The position numbers and the translations under genes were made by a program. DNA of 64,000 nt from Martelella sp. NC20 (GTDB taxonomy: Bacteria > Pseudomonadota > Alphaproteobacteria > Rhizobiales > Rhizobiaceae), in the NCBI RefSeq assembly GCF_013459645.1, contig NZ_CP054861.1, positions 2,902,001 to 2,966,000 on the forward strand, in the 5' to 3' direction. This document shows positions 58,053-62,004 of this stretch, in pieces. The notes under the pieces were generated by a model. That model did not search any database. It was given only the letters and a program-made list of their open reading frames with translations, and was not told the origin of the DNA. Every line of letters starts with the position of its first letter. The stretch's first letter is position 1.

Positions 58053-58258
58053 TGCCATTCCCTCGGATTGTCCTGATCGCGGCAGTTTGCAGGAGAACCG
58101 CCGAAAGGTCCATGTAGGGCGACGACCGGGCTCATCACACATTCGTGAAGATGGCCACGTCGATGAAGACGAATCTCGCGGTCGGCTCACTTGCTTTCAG
58201 AGCGGACTTTCACCATCTCGATTGCCGGACTGGGTTCACCGCGGGGAGTATGCGGACA

Positions 58259-59059
58259 ATGCGTGAAAAGGTGCTGGCTTTGATGAATTCCCGGCTCTGG
58301 GAGTCCTTCATCCTTACGGTCATCGTGGTCAACGCCATCACTTTGGGGTTCGAGACGTCCGAAACCGTCATGAGTAGTTTTGCCGGTCCGCTGCTGCGTT
58401 TGTTCGACGGCCTGGTGCTCACCATTTTCGTGATCGAGATCGCGTTGCGCCTCTATGCCAACAGGCTTCGGTTCTTTCGCGATCCGTGGAGTATCTTCGA
58501 TTTCACGATCGTCACGATCAGCCTTCTGCCGGCAACGGGCCCGCTTCAGGTGCTGCGCGCATTGCGGATCCTGCGCGCGCTCCGGCTTTTGTCGATGATC
58601 CCGTCATTGCGGCGCGTCATCGGCGGGCTGGTGGCGGCCCTTCCCGGCATGGGCTCGATCATCGTGCTGATGGCGCTGGTGTTCTACATCTTCGCCGTGA
58701 TCGCGACCAAGCTCTACGGCGAGGCCTTTCCCGAATGGTTCGGCTCGCTCGGCGCGTCGATCTATTCGCTGTTCCAGATCATGACGCTGGAAAGCTGGTC
58801 GATGGGCATCGTCCGGCCGGTCATGGAGGTCTATCCGAACGCCTGGCTGTTCTTCGTCCCGTTCATCCTGTCGACCGCGTTTACCGTGCTCAACCTGTTC
58901 ATCGGTATCATCGTCTCGGCGATGCAGAAGGAGCATGAGCAGGAGCTTCTGGAAGAAAGCCGACAGGCACGCGAGCCGGAAATGCAGTTGATCCTCTCGG
59001 AGCTGAAGGCGCTGAGGCAGGAGGTGGCATCGCTGAGGAAGGAACAGCCTGCCTCGTGA
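58259..59059 (+). CDS. Voltage-gated sodium channel, bacterial NaChBac type
   Basis: This 266-residue protein has six transmembrane helices. S4 shows gating arginines at every third position (R100, R103, R106, R109, in VLRALRILRALRLL). The pore loop is TLESWS (176-181), and TLESW is the sodium-selective filter motif of bacterial Nav channels. S6 is TAFTVLNLFIGIIVSAM. The C-terminus (about 222-262) is a coiled coil that would hold the tetramer. The ATG at 58259 is chosen with GGGGAG 10 bases upstream; 58145 and 58250 are alternatives. Roles in ion homeostasis or motility are inferred. Confidence 0.9.
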   Translation: MREKVLALMNSRLWESFILTVIVVNAITLGFETSETVMSSFAGPLLRLFDGLVLTIFVIEIALRLYANRLRFFRDPWSIFDFTIVTISLLPATGPLQVLRALRILRALRLLSMIPSLRRVIGGLVAALPGMGSIIVLMALVFYIFAVIATKLYGEAFPEWFGSLGASIYSLFQIMTLESWSMGIVRPVMEVYPNAWLFFVPFILSTAFTVLNLFIGIIVSAMQKEHEQELLEESRQAREPEMQLILSELKALRQEVASLRKEQPAS

Positions 59060-59130
59060 GAGCGGGCCGAGACCGCTGACAAAGCAATAAGCTTTGACCA
59101 TCATTTGTCATCGGCCCTTCGTTCTTGTGT

Positions 59131-59239
59131 CATGCTCGGACTTGATCCGAGCATCCAGGCGGTTTAAGTCGCTGAATTTGCAAAGGTCTATAACGATCCC
59201 TTGCCGGGCGGCCTGGATCCTCGGGTCAAGCCCGAGGAT
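59131..59239. repeat. REP/RIME-type palindromic intergenic element, split by IS110
   Basis: The left arm GTCATGCTCGGACTTGATCC (from 59131) and the following GAGCATCCAGG are mirrored by CCTGGATCCTCGGGTCAAGC (from 59214) and CCGAGGAT (59232-59239). The matching last bases GAC are found at 60398-60400, on the other side of the insertion sequence. Each arm is itself a hairpin (CTCGGACTTGATCCGAG; CTCGGGTCAAGCCCGAG). Such elements are common in alphaproteobacterial intergenic DNA. Confidence 0.8.
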
Positions 59240-59264
59240 TGTTTGTTGAATGCAGGTTATGATG

Positions 59265-59430
59265 TTGGCGCAGCTGCGGGCTCTTTCACAGCCCGCAGCT
59301 GCTGTGGCAGGCGACCGTCCGAGGATTGGGCAACACCCGACGTCATCAAGGTCACTGCCGCACTCTGCCATCGCTTGGAGAGTTGATTGGGCCGCTGCCT
59401 GGCACGCCCGCAAACAATCCGAAGCCTAGA
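59265..59430 (+). ncRNA. Candidate bridge RNA of the IS110 element
   Basis: The RNA begins with a 13-bp hairpin (59270-59282/59290-59302, 7-base loop). Then come two stem-loops with internal loops. The first has stems GGCA..GACC/GGTC..TGCC and a GGG/CCC cap; its internal loop holds CCGAGGAT (59319-59326), identical to the left target, and CGTCATC (59341-59347), the reverse complement of the right target GATGACG. The second has a GGGC/GCCC cap; its loop holds AGAGTTGAT (59379-59387), identical to the right donor end, and CAAACAATC (59411-59419), the reverse complement of the left donor GATTGTTTG. Exact ends are estimated. Confidence 0.8.
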
Positions 59431-59445
59431 GAGGATAGCATCACC

Positions 59446-60396
59446 ATGACCTTTTTGCATCATCCCCCGTGCCGTTGCCTTGGCGTCGATGTCGCCAAGG
59501 ACACCATCGCCATTTTTGACGGCCGCATCGCGACGGTCATTCCCAACCAGCGAAAACAGATCCGGCACTTCCTGCGAAAGTGCGATGTCGACCTGGTCAT
59601 TTGCGAGCCCACCGGCGGCTACGAGATCATCTTGATGGAAGAATGCCGGGGCCTGAAACTTCCGCTCCATCGCGCCGACACACGCAAGCTCAAGGCTTTC
59701 ATCCGGTCACGCGGCCGCTTGGGCAAGAGCGATGCGATCGATGCGCGGGAAATGGTCGCCTATGGGCTGGAGCGATGGGCAACCCTGCCTTTATGGCATG
59801 CGGAGGACCCCTGTGAGGCAAGGCTCAAGGCTCTCGTGCGCCGCCGCGCCGATCTGGTGGCCATGAGGGTGGCCGAGCAGAATCGCGCCAAGGCCCCAAG
59901 CGCGCGCGAACTGGGCGGGCGCGACCTGGCCGCCACCTTCAAGGCCCTGCTCACTGTCCTCAACCGGCAGATCGTGCTTGTCGACAAAGCCATCAGTGCG
60001 CTGATGCGCTCCGCATCCCTTGTGCAGAGGGCCAGGACCGCAACCGCCATGAAGGGTATCGGCGAAACGACGGCCGCAGCCCTCATTGCCGCCATACCGG
60101 AACTGGGGAAGATGGACCGAAAGCAAGCAGCGGCTCTGGCGGGCCTGGCGCCTCATCCAAACGAAAGCGGCAACAAGATCGGCTACCGCAGGATGCGCGG
60201 TGGACGGCCAGCCGTGCGAACGATCCTGTTCATGCCCGCCATGCAGGCCGCACAAGGAAGGGGCGAATTCGTCGAATTCTACAAACGCCTCATCCACAAC
60301 GGTAAAAAGCCAATCGTCGCCCTCGCCGCGGTCATGCGAAAGATAGTCATCACATTGAATGCAAGGTTCAGAGACCAGCTAAGCCAACAGAGTTGA
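59446..60396 (+). CDS. IS110-family transposase (DEDD recombinase)
   Basis: This 316-residue recombinase has a RuvC-like N-terminal domain with the DEDD residues D15 (LGVDVAKD), E54 (ICEPTGGYE), D96 and D99 (KSDAIDA). A central coiled region follows, and then a C-terminal Tnp domain (ATAMKGIGETTAAALIAAIPE ... LAPHPNESGNKIGYRRMRG) with the catalytic-type Ser S241. All key residues are intact, so the element may be active. The ATG at 59446 follows AGAGAGGA; the longer frame would overlap the RNA region. Confidence 0.93.
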   Translation: MTFLHHPPCRCLGVDVAKDTIAIFDGRIATVIPNQRKQIRHFLRKCDVDLVICEPTGGYEIILMEECRGLKLPLHRADTRKLKAFIRSRGRLGKSDAIDAREMVAYGLERWATLPLWHAEDPCEARLKALVRRRADLVAMRVAEQNRAKAPSARELGGRDLAATFKALLTVLNRQIVLVDKAISALMRSASLVQRARTATAMKGIGETTAAALIAAIPELGKMDRKQAAALAGLAPHPNESGNKIGYRRMRGGRPAVRTILFMPAMQAAQGRGEFVEFYKRLIHNGKKPIVALAAVMRKIVITLNARFRDQLSQQS

Positions 60397-60483
60397 TGAC
60401 GCGGAATATGGGGAGAGGTTTGTCAGCAAACTGGGCCCGCGCCGTAAGGGCGGGCCGATCTCGGTCTGACGATCAGAAGCGTC

Positions 60484-62004
60484 TCAAGTGGTCGCGATCA
60501 TCAGCTTCTTGCCGGTGAGCTTGGCAAGCTGGTCCAGCCGCCCCTCCACCCGCTCGCCGATGAAATCGGCATGCTGCTCGGGCACCACCAGTTCGAGGTC
60601 GAAATCCTTGTTCTTCGCCGGCAGGAAATCGAGCGCGCCGACAATACCGGGCATCGAGGCCGAGAACAGGTAGGCGACGCGCAACAGGCCGCCAAGCAGC
60701 TTGGCGCGTTCCAGCAATTCGGGCGTCGCGATCGTGCCGAGGCCGTCGGTATGGTCGTCGTCGCGCAGGCCTTCGTAGCGGTAGTAATTGGTGAGCGCGA
60801 TGAAGGCGCGGCCGGGATGGGTGATGCCGGTCAGCGCCGAGTGGGCGATCACGTTCAGCGACTGGCGGCCGCGGAAATCGGGATGGGCGCGCCAGCTGAT
60901 ATCGGCCAGCAGACACGCGGCCTGCCGGTAGCGCGCTTCCTCGGGCGTTTCCTCGATGCCGAAACGGCGCAGCATCAGCCCTGTCCAGGCGGCGATCTCG
61001 GCGGCGTGTTTGGGCGAGCGGGCGCGCAGCAGCGCCAGTTGGCGGGCGGCCACCAGCAGCGGATCCTGGTCCTGTTCCTCCGCGCTCAGCAGCGAATAGA
61101 GCAGGCCCTCGCGCACCCCTTGCGCCGAAAAGCTGATCGCCTTCGGCTGCATGACGCTCAGCACTTCGCGCATCGCGATCGCGCCGAACGGCAGCAGCAT
61201 GCGGCGGTTCTTGGAAACCGCCTGCCAGGCCGGGTCCTTCTGTTCCTCGTCGCCGCCGATGCGGTCTAGAAAGGCCATCATCTCGTCGAAGCCGAGTTCA
61301 TAGCCCTGCATCATCGTCAGCGGATAATTGTTGATCTCCATATGGAGCCTGGCGATGTTTCGCCAGGTGCCGCCGACGGCATAGAAGGTGCGGCCCCGCC
61401 CTTTTTCCAGGAACGTGACCTTCTTGACCTGTTTCCTGGCGAAGTTGCGGGCCTTGGAAAGCGAGCCTTCCGAAAGCTCCGACAGCCTTATGCCGCCGAG
61501 CGGCAAGGTGATGCCGTCGCCATAGGTCTTGTCCTTGATGTCGATGAGTTCGAGCGAGCCGCCGCCGAGGTCGCCTGCAATGCCGTCCGGCTGGTGAAAT
61601 CCGCTGATGATGCCGTAGGCGGAATAGAGCGCCTCCTCGCGGCCGGTCAGAACCCGGACATCCAGCCCCAGGATTTTCTCCGCCGCCTCGATGAAGGCCG
61701 GGCCGTTGGTGGCCTCGCGCGCCGCCGCCGTCGCCAGAACATGCATGGTGACGGAACGGGCCTGGGTTGCGAGCGCCCTGAAGCGCTTCAACGCCCTCAG
61801 GGCGCGTTCCACGCCTTCCTCGTTCATCTTGCCGCTGGCAGCGATCCCCCGGCCGAGGCCGCACAGGACCTTTTCGTTGAACAGCACCGTCGGCGCGCGC
61901 GACAGGCCCTCATAGATGACGATGCGAACCGAGTTCGATCCGATATCGACCACGGAGACAGGGGAGATTCCGCGAAGGCGCCCCTGCGCTTCTGATTCGA
62001 CCAT
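60484..62004 (-). CDS. ppx: Exopolyphosphatase, Ppx/GppA family
   Basis: This 506-residue enzyme of the ASKHA fold removes terminal phosphate from polyphosphate or converts pppGpp to ppGpp. It has phosphate-1 SVVDIGSNSVRIVIY, AREATNG with the catalytic-type Glu in LTGREEALYSAYG, and phosphate-2 GDLGGGSLELIDI. A C-terminal HD-like helical domain (ADISWRAHPDFRG) completes it. It is 11 bases downstream of ppk, so both arms of polyphosphate turnover are in one operon. Confidence 0.94.
   Translation of the reverse strand: MVESEAQGRLRGISPVSVVDIGSNSVRIVIYEGLSRAPTVLFNEKVLCGLGRGIAASGKMNEEGVERALRALKRFRALATQARSVTMHVLATAAAREATNGPAFIEAAEKILGLDVRVLTGREEALYSAYGIISGFHQPDGIAGDLGGGSLELIDIKDKTYGDGITLPLGGIRLSELSEGSLSKARNFARKQVKKVTFLEKGRGRTFYAVGGTWRNIARLHMEINNYPLTMMQGYELGFDEMMAFLDRIGGDEEQKDPAWQAVSKNRRMLLPFGAIAMREVLSVMQPKAISFSAQGVREGLLYSLLSAEEQDQDPLLVAARQLALLRARSPKHAAEIAAWTGLMLRRFGIEETPEEARYRQAACLLADISWRAHPDFRGRQSLNVIAHSALTGITHPGRAFIALTNYYRYEGLRDDDHTDGLGTIATPELLERAKLLGGLLRVAYLFSASMPGIVGALDFLPAKNKDFDLELVVPEQHADFIGERVEGRLDQLAKLTGKKLMIATT

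Follow-up and report, generated by a model that had tools for sequence, protein, structure and literature searches.

Structure of the insertion sequence and its genomic copies

The window, i.e., the entire analyzed stretch of 64,000 nt, contained an insertion sequence of 1.16 kb (59240..60397, forward strand) located between the frames 58145-59059 and 60484-62004, and its boundaries were established by reading the sequence and comparing copies. The element consisted of a left non-coding end of about 206 nt, a recombinase gene (59446..60396, forward strand) encoding a product of 316 aa, and a right end comprising only the stop codon and the core; the TGA stop (60394-60396) overlapped the left donor and the core. 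The recombinase matched PF01548 (38.4 bits, cut-off 29) and PF02371 (58.5 bits, cut-off 21.3), as well as the NCBIfam model NF033542, "IS110 family RNA-guided transposase" (148 bits, cut-off 140). The residues D15, E54, D96, D99, and S241, pointed out in an earlier reading made without database searches (hereafter, the sequence-only reading), were present, were invariant across 35 aligned sequences including the window protein, and lay in segments that aligned with those of IS621. A profile of the 35 relatives identified two proteins of solved structure, those of IS621 and ISCro4, as homologues. Judging by its DEDD RuvC-like domain and its C-terminal Transposase_20 domain with a conserved Ser, the element is a member of the IS110 group of the IS110 family.

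The core AT occupied 59238-59239 at the left boundary and 60396-60397 at the right one, with one of the two counted as part of the element. The sequence-only reading had given the core as GAT, which had to be corrected on the basis of another genome of the same genus (G006), containing ten copies of the element that were ~73–75% identical in protein. The base preceding AT in these copies was C on the left flank in five of ten and G on the right in all ten; consequently, G is not exchanged, GAT was rejected, and the core is AT, with the shared G lying outside it. This third shared base probably corresponds to the position that is read by the handshake bases in IS621, as described in the available text of PMC11208158.

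Eight full-length, near-identical copies were found in the genome to which the window belongs (G000). The other seven differed from the window copy by 0–3 bases, which suggests a recent spread of the element in this genome, and a 377-codon frame without stops was open in all eight, so that the element appears intact. It is improbable that the element is a dead relic with fossil guides: some relatives elsewhere (L122, L132, and L249) look damaged, but the catalytic residues are conserved and the eight copies share the near-identity and the open frame described above. In addition to these copies, 13 further places matching PF01548 were observed in G000, of which two scored lower than the family cut-off.

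Predicted bridge RNA, its guide segments, and a proposed junction promoter

The left end is predicted to encode a bridge RNA of ~165–170 nt (59270..59440, forward strand), both ends of which are putative. On the same strand it would comprise a 5' stem-loop (59270..59302), a target-binding stem-loop (59304..59361) with the LTG segment, a short GGG/CCC hairpin, and the RTG segment, and a donor-binding stem-loop (59373..59425) with the LDG and RDG segments. The fold of 59266-59440 had an energy of −81.9 kcal/mol (z −3.68) and consisted of the 5' hairpin and two stem-loops. When the parts were folded alone, the 5' hairpin (59266-59305) was strong (z −4.75), the target loop gave a moderate z of −1.90, and the donor loop (z −0.24) was no better than shuffled sequences.

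Among the matches to Rfam in 58900-60700, none of ten reached the gathering score; therefore, a covariance model was built from the left ends of relatives. The alignment of 24 left ends with 28 pairs had 96.6% of cells paired, and double changes were found in 11 of the 28 pairs (eight of them belonging to the target stem and two to the tip of the donor hairpin, with one more in the small hairpin that separates the target guides), a value reached by none of 500 shuffles and by none of the slid versions, which were all lower. The main donor stem was invariant, so covariation in the relatives is no test of that stem. The consensus of relatives left the target guides unpaired in the first loop and paired GTT of LDG with AAC of RDG. 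The minimum-energy fold of the single sequence paired 4 of 8 bases of LTG, 3 of 7 of RTG, 4 of 9 of LDG, and 5 of 9 of RDG. Thus, the placement of the guides in internal loops, as proposed in the sequence-only reading, holds in the consensus of relatives, whereas the single-sequence fold pairs some guide bases weakly across the loops.

In broad scans, the model matched 14 genomes in the order set (397 searched) and 3 in the phylum set (398 searched), with G000 and G367 belonging to both sets. Applied to 84 loci, after the exclusion of seven duplicate stretches (L243–L247, L250, and L251), it gave 80 hits, of which 72 were kept (24 used in model building and 48 not); the dropped hits were the weak ones of L134, L086, L181, and L187–L190 and a second, partial hit in L132. 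Loci L181 and L187–L190 of G006 contained other IS110 copies with 32–35% identity and weak matches to the RNA model (26.8 bits).

All four guide segments proposed in the sequence-only reading were found again on the forward strand together with their partners. LTG (CCGAGGAT, 59319-59326) was identical to the left target flank (59232-59239), and RTG (CGTCATC, 59341-59347) was the reverse complement of the right target GATGACG (60395..60401, forward strand). LDG (AGAGTTGAT, 59379-59387) was identical to the right element end, i.e., the left donor (60389..60397, forward strand), and RDG (CAAACAATC, 59411-59419) was the reverse complement of the left element end GATTGTTTG (59237-59245). The longest exact matches of LTG, RTG, LDG, and RDG were 8, 7, 9, and 9 nt, respectively, and ended at the junctions. 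These single lengths were reached in 70, 139, 16, and 6 of 20,000 dinucleotide shuffles of 59246-59445, while the summed length of 33 was reached in none (maximum 26), which bears out the earlier statement that a chance origin of the four matches is very unlikely.

A predicted −10 box, TATGAT, was located at 59258..59263 on the forward strand. When the two ends are joined (60393-60397 + 59240), the sequence reads TTGATT-17-TATGAT; the −35 box is absent from the inserted form, where AGGATT occupies its slot, and no promoter-like site was found in the scan of 59100-60500 in this form. Of 38 distinct left ends, 35 had the motif TANNNT at a spacing of 17 or 18, and each of the remaining spacings between 8 and 31 was represented by one left end at most, although the −10 hexamer of the relatives often agreed with the consensus at just 3 or 4 of 6 positions. 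The circle junction is thus predicted to complete a promoter for the bridge RNA, which agrees with the promoter formed across the circle junction in IS621 according to the available text of PMC11208160.

Target sites and covariation of guides with flanking DNA

The left target flank of the window copy was formed by a palindromic REP-like repeat ATCCTCGGGTCAAGCCCGAGGAT (59217..59239, forward strand), which continued beyond the element with GACG (60398-60401). An inverted partner repeat with a C-type arm, GAGCATGAC, was located ~60 bp upstream (59132..59154, reverse strand); in the window, the G-type repeat was occupied by the element and the C-type partner was empty. In G000, 50 intact CCGAGGATGACG sites were counted versus 2 for the reversed control pattern. 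The palindromic repeat (up to 2 mismatches) was found in 46 of the 101 genomes searched, including the genome of the window, and at the places listed in related genomes it often formed inverted pairs ~70–140 bp apart.

The flanks of the other copies fitted the same guides: they were exactly CCGAGGAT on the left and GATGACG on the right in seven of the eight G000 copies, and the flanks of the remaining copy, L007 (CCGGGGAT and GATGACA), had one mismatch per guide, two in all, so that the refutation which the sequence-only reading had envisaged from other copies did not occur. Six copies were located inside the palindrome ATCCTCGGG-TCAAG-CCCGAGGAT-GACG or one of its variants, with 8 or 9 of 9 arm bases, and of the two arms of the palindrome only the one bordered by GATGAC was used. 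The left flanks of two copies, L004 and L005, had 91% identity over 176 bp, and these two elements seem to have entered duplicates of a single, longer repeat unit. Outside any repeat, copy L008 (2639-3991) matched the guides exactly at a site in the 3' portion of a tctA-like transporter frame (the product matched TctA, PF01970, E-value = 3 × 10−133); its site had a palindrome score of 5 of 9 arm bases, and 97.5% of 200 shuffles reached as much. Copy L007 was also located outside a palindrome, between two possibly phosphatase-like frames.

For the comparison of guides with flanks across relatives, the left boundary was taken from the donor motif, independently of LTG. For the congener G008, which has broken copies and a match on contig 19 (64613-65110), guides were read from the single copy L135 (PVUG01000019.1, Martelella mediterranea USBA-857; match starting at 64613). 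Of the 72 rows, 66 entered the LTG statistic; those left out were L249 and L252 (misplaced left boundary), L122 and L146 (no left boundary), and L124 and L128 (flank cut short). LTG matched its own flank at a mean of 5.48 of 6 non-core positions over 22 LTG types, including that of the window (66 copies), compared with 3.54 for shuffled pairings, none of 20,000 of which was as high; shuffling over LTG types leaves the relatedness between the elements in, and the within-genome tests given below handle kinship better but are small. By copy, the match was 6 of 6 in 37, 5 of 6 in 25, and 4 of 6 in 4. Guide and flank were identical, for example, as CTCGCAAT, CGTAGGAT, CCTGGGAT, and GCGGGGAT; mismatches included two in L114, one in L118, and three in L228, and in L252, read by eye, the flank TCAAATAAT faced LTG TCGAATAAT.

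The right guide was far more uniform: RTG read GATGAC in 67 of 72 RNAs, and 53 of the 55 right flanks found began with GATGAC. In L133, RTG and right flank had both changed to GATGAGG, while the right junction of L131 did not fit (GATTGTGACG); near position 2428 of this locus, the junction was AGTTGATTGTGACGG in place of AGTTGATGACGG, as if extra bases had been inserted at the crossover. At the seventh right-target base (54 rows, with L131 and the rows lacking a right end excluded), G in the reverse complement of RTG faced G in 23 rows, C in 5, A in 2, and T in 1; A faced A in 14, G in 6, and C in 1; and T faced G and C in 1 each. As for the donor guides, 68 copies were compared for RDG and RD, which agreed at all 9 positions in 42 (three forms: GATTGTTTG, GATTGTTCG, and GATTGTCTG) and at 7 or 8 positions in the others, and LDG agreed with LD at 9 of 9 in 43 of 55 and at 7 or 8 in 11, with one row misread; in this comparison, L116 was off by one base owing to a gap. 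Both LD and LDG were TGACTTGAT in L253, while six copies had LD TGAGTTGAT with LDG still AGAGTTGAT, i.e., one mismatch. The architecture of target and donor guides described for IS110 bridge RNAs, which the sequence-only reading had recognized at this locus, is thus backed by covariation of guides and flanks across the relatives.

Guide alleles differing by one base were found within a single genome. In G006, LTG was CCGAGCAT (LTG-C) in six copies, five of which had C-type flanks, and CCGAGTAT (LTG-T) in four copies, all of which had G-type flanks (target class of the two alleles compared, p = 0.024); of the two, only LTG-C is a Watson–Crick match to its target. The 53 empty sites of this genome were C-type in 10 cases, G-type in 41, and A-type in 2. 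As only 10 of 53 empty sites were C-type, the preference of the LTG-C copies for such targets (5 of 6) does not reflect the background (p = 0.003), whereas the occurrence of LTG-T at G-type sites (4 of 4), without a Watson–Crick match, could not be distinguished from it (p = 0.38). In G000, LTG-G copies were located at G-type targets in 8 of 8 cases versus 30 of 54 empty sites (p = 0.014). G006 copies whose RTG ended in U had GACA in 5 of 9 A/G sites versus 5 of 53 empty sites (p = 0.0036), the tenth copy having GACC; the RTG test in G000 was not significant (7 of 8 versus 45 of 54, p = 0.62). When the occupied sites were limited to the pattern of the empty sites (CCCGAG on the left), the values were p = 0.010 for LTG-C, p = 0.013 for RTG-U, and p = 0.039 for LTG-G of G000. 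It should be noted that the six within-genome tests were one-sided and uncorrected, that the three restricted repeats used fewer sites, and that the empty sites of both genomes were counted by eye. The LTG-C copy at a G-type flank was L171, the left palindrome arm of which was C-type; this base was possibly converted from the donor during insertion.

These data also bear on the explanation that the recombinase itself reads the palindromic repeat, by shape or by sequence, and that the left end resembles the target by coincidence or as part of a regulatory sRNA. Many sites are indeed palindromic (of 66 sites, 36 had at least 8 of the 9 arm bases and 51 had at least 7), IS110 elements in REPs, among them ISRm19 of Sinorhizobium, had been described before guides were known (available text of PMC1525189), and regulatory sRNAs are reported for ISPpu9 (available text of PMC8450116). 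However, L008 and L007 are located outside palindromes, yet the guides fit exactly in the former and with two mismatches in the latter, and the exact match of L008 without a palindrome favors sequence guides over palindrome shape. Moreover, a single arm of the palindrome was used in the six repeat copies, flank and LTG covary over 22 LTG types, and copies of G006 that closely resembled one another but carried different LTG alleles occupied different targets. Direct reading of the repeat by the recombinase is therefore very improbable, and targeting by RNA guides is preferred.

Proposed mechanism and relation to known systems

The DEDD/Ser recombinase, the conserved structure of the left-end RNA, the four complementary guides, and the covariation of guides with DNA are features of the sequences themselves. 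Taken together with the published mechanism, from which transcription, RNA binding, and recombination are carried over, they make us highly confident that the element is an IS110-group insertion sequence working as described for IS621. The overall interpretation in the sequence-only reading, an IS110 element whose guides can be read, is accordingly supported by the copy flanks, the consensus fold, and the covariation. The recombinase would excise the element as a circle in which TTG at the right end is brought next to the left end, and this junction would complete the promoter from which the bridge RNA is transcribed. The first loop of this RNA would pair with the host sequence CCGAGG-AT-GACG, LTG with the bottom strand and RTG with the top strand, and the second with the circle junction AGAGTTG-AT-TGTTTG; the recombinase would then exchange strands at the AT core, so that the DNA partners of the recombination would be CCGAGGATGACG and AGAGTTGATTGTTTG. 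RTG would read the outer border GATGAC of the REP-like palindromes and LTG the palindrome arm, and hence insertion into the repeat would take place in one orientation. A change of LTG base 59324 from G to C would be expected to move the preference to CCGAGCATGACG.

An IS1111-type element or a TIGR-Tas-like nuclease is extremely improbable: IS1111 membership presupposes a right-end guide RNA and subterminal inverted repeats of 7–17 bp, whereas here the left end holds the guide RNA and the stop codon and core that make up the right end leave no room for one; TIGR-Tas systems are defined by a tandem guide array together with a Tas protein, and the match to the Tas protein model was weak (31.8 bits, cut-off 100), while the IS110 model passed its own cut-off.

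With about even confidence, the IS110 clade to which the element belongs is considered to be specialized on alphaproteobacterial REP-like palindromes, with the right guide near-frozen on GATGAC, an outer border common to many such repeats, the left guide following the host arm base by base, and the two alleles in one genome, which use different repeat classes, representing retargeting in progress. If so, natural retargeting is visible here and can be scored against empty sites. The one-base alleles of G006, together with the empty-site counts, provide a natural experiment in which the specificity of bridge RNAs can be followed in vivo down to the single base. The pattern of the guides also suggests a route by which repeats may be followed from host to host, the guide for the shared border being kept and the other varied. 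Irrespective of the clade, the element is a compact candidate bridge recombinase (1.16 kb, 316 aa, AT core) with a full set of readable guides and eight genomic copies.

Among the literature matches listed (titles and abstract openings, with subscription journals thinly covered), none concerned this element or its clade. All of its features match published bridge-RNA biology; thus, the kind is already known and the element is newly documented. The closest comparison is with IS621 of E. coli (PDB 8wt6), the bridge-RNA mechanism of which is given in PMC11208158, while bridge RNAs, REP targets, and guide covariation over thousands of elements are reported in PMC11208160. According to the available text of these papers, the two elements have in common the domain layout and catalytic residues, a left-end RNA that runs in the same order from a 5' hairpin through the target loop to the donor loop, guides directed at either strand of the target and of the donor, a REP target, and a junction-spanning promoter, which is predicted here. 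Unlike IS621, the present element is distant in sequence, has the core AT instead of CT and the target CCGAGGATGACG, and its right end is shrunk to the stop codon and core; it should be noted that recombination by IS621 is also supported by AT cores (available text of PMC11208158). ISCro4 (PDB 9t56) has a homologous recombinase (E-value = 4.2 × 10−34 with the profile of 35 sequences). ISRm19 of S. meliloti, ISPa11, ISPpu9, and ISPpu10 are likewise IS110-family elements in palindromic repeats, known here from their description in the available text of PMC1525189. A published case of natural redirection by a changed target-matching RNA segment is the seekRNA of ISEc11 and ISXne4 (available text of PMC11187229); these differ in belonging to the IS1111 family and in being two distinct ISs whose sites are mostly different, rather than one-base alleles among the copies of one genome. 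The value added by the present element lies in the quantitative natural test and in the observation that the right guide hardly changes while the left one evolves.
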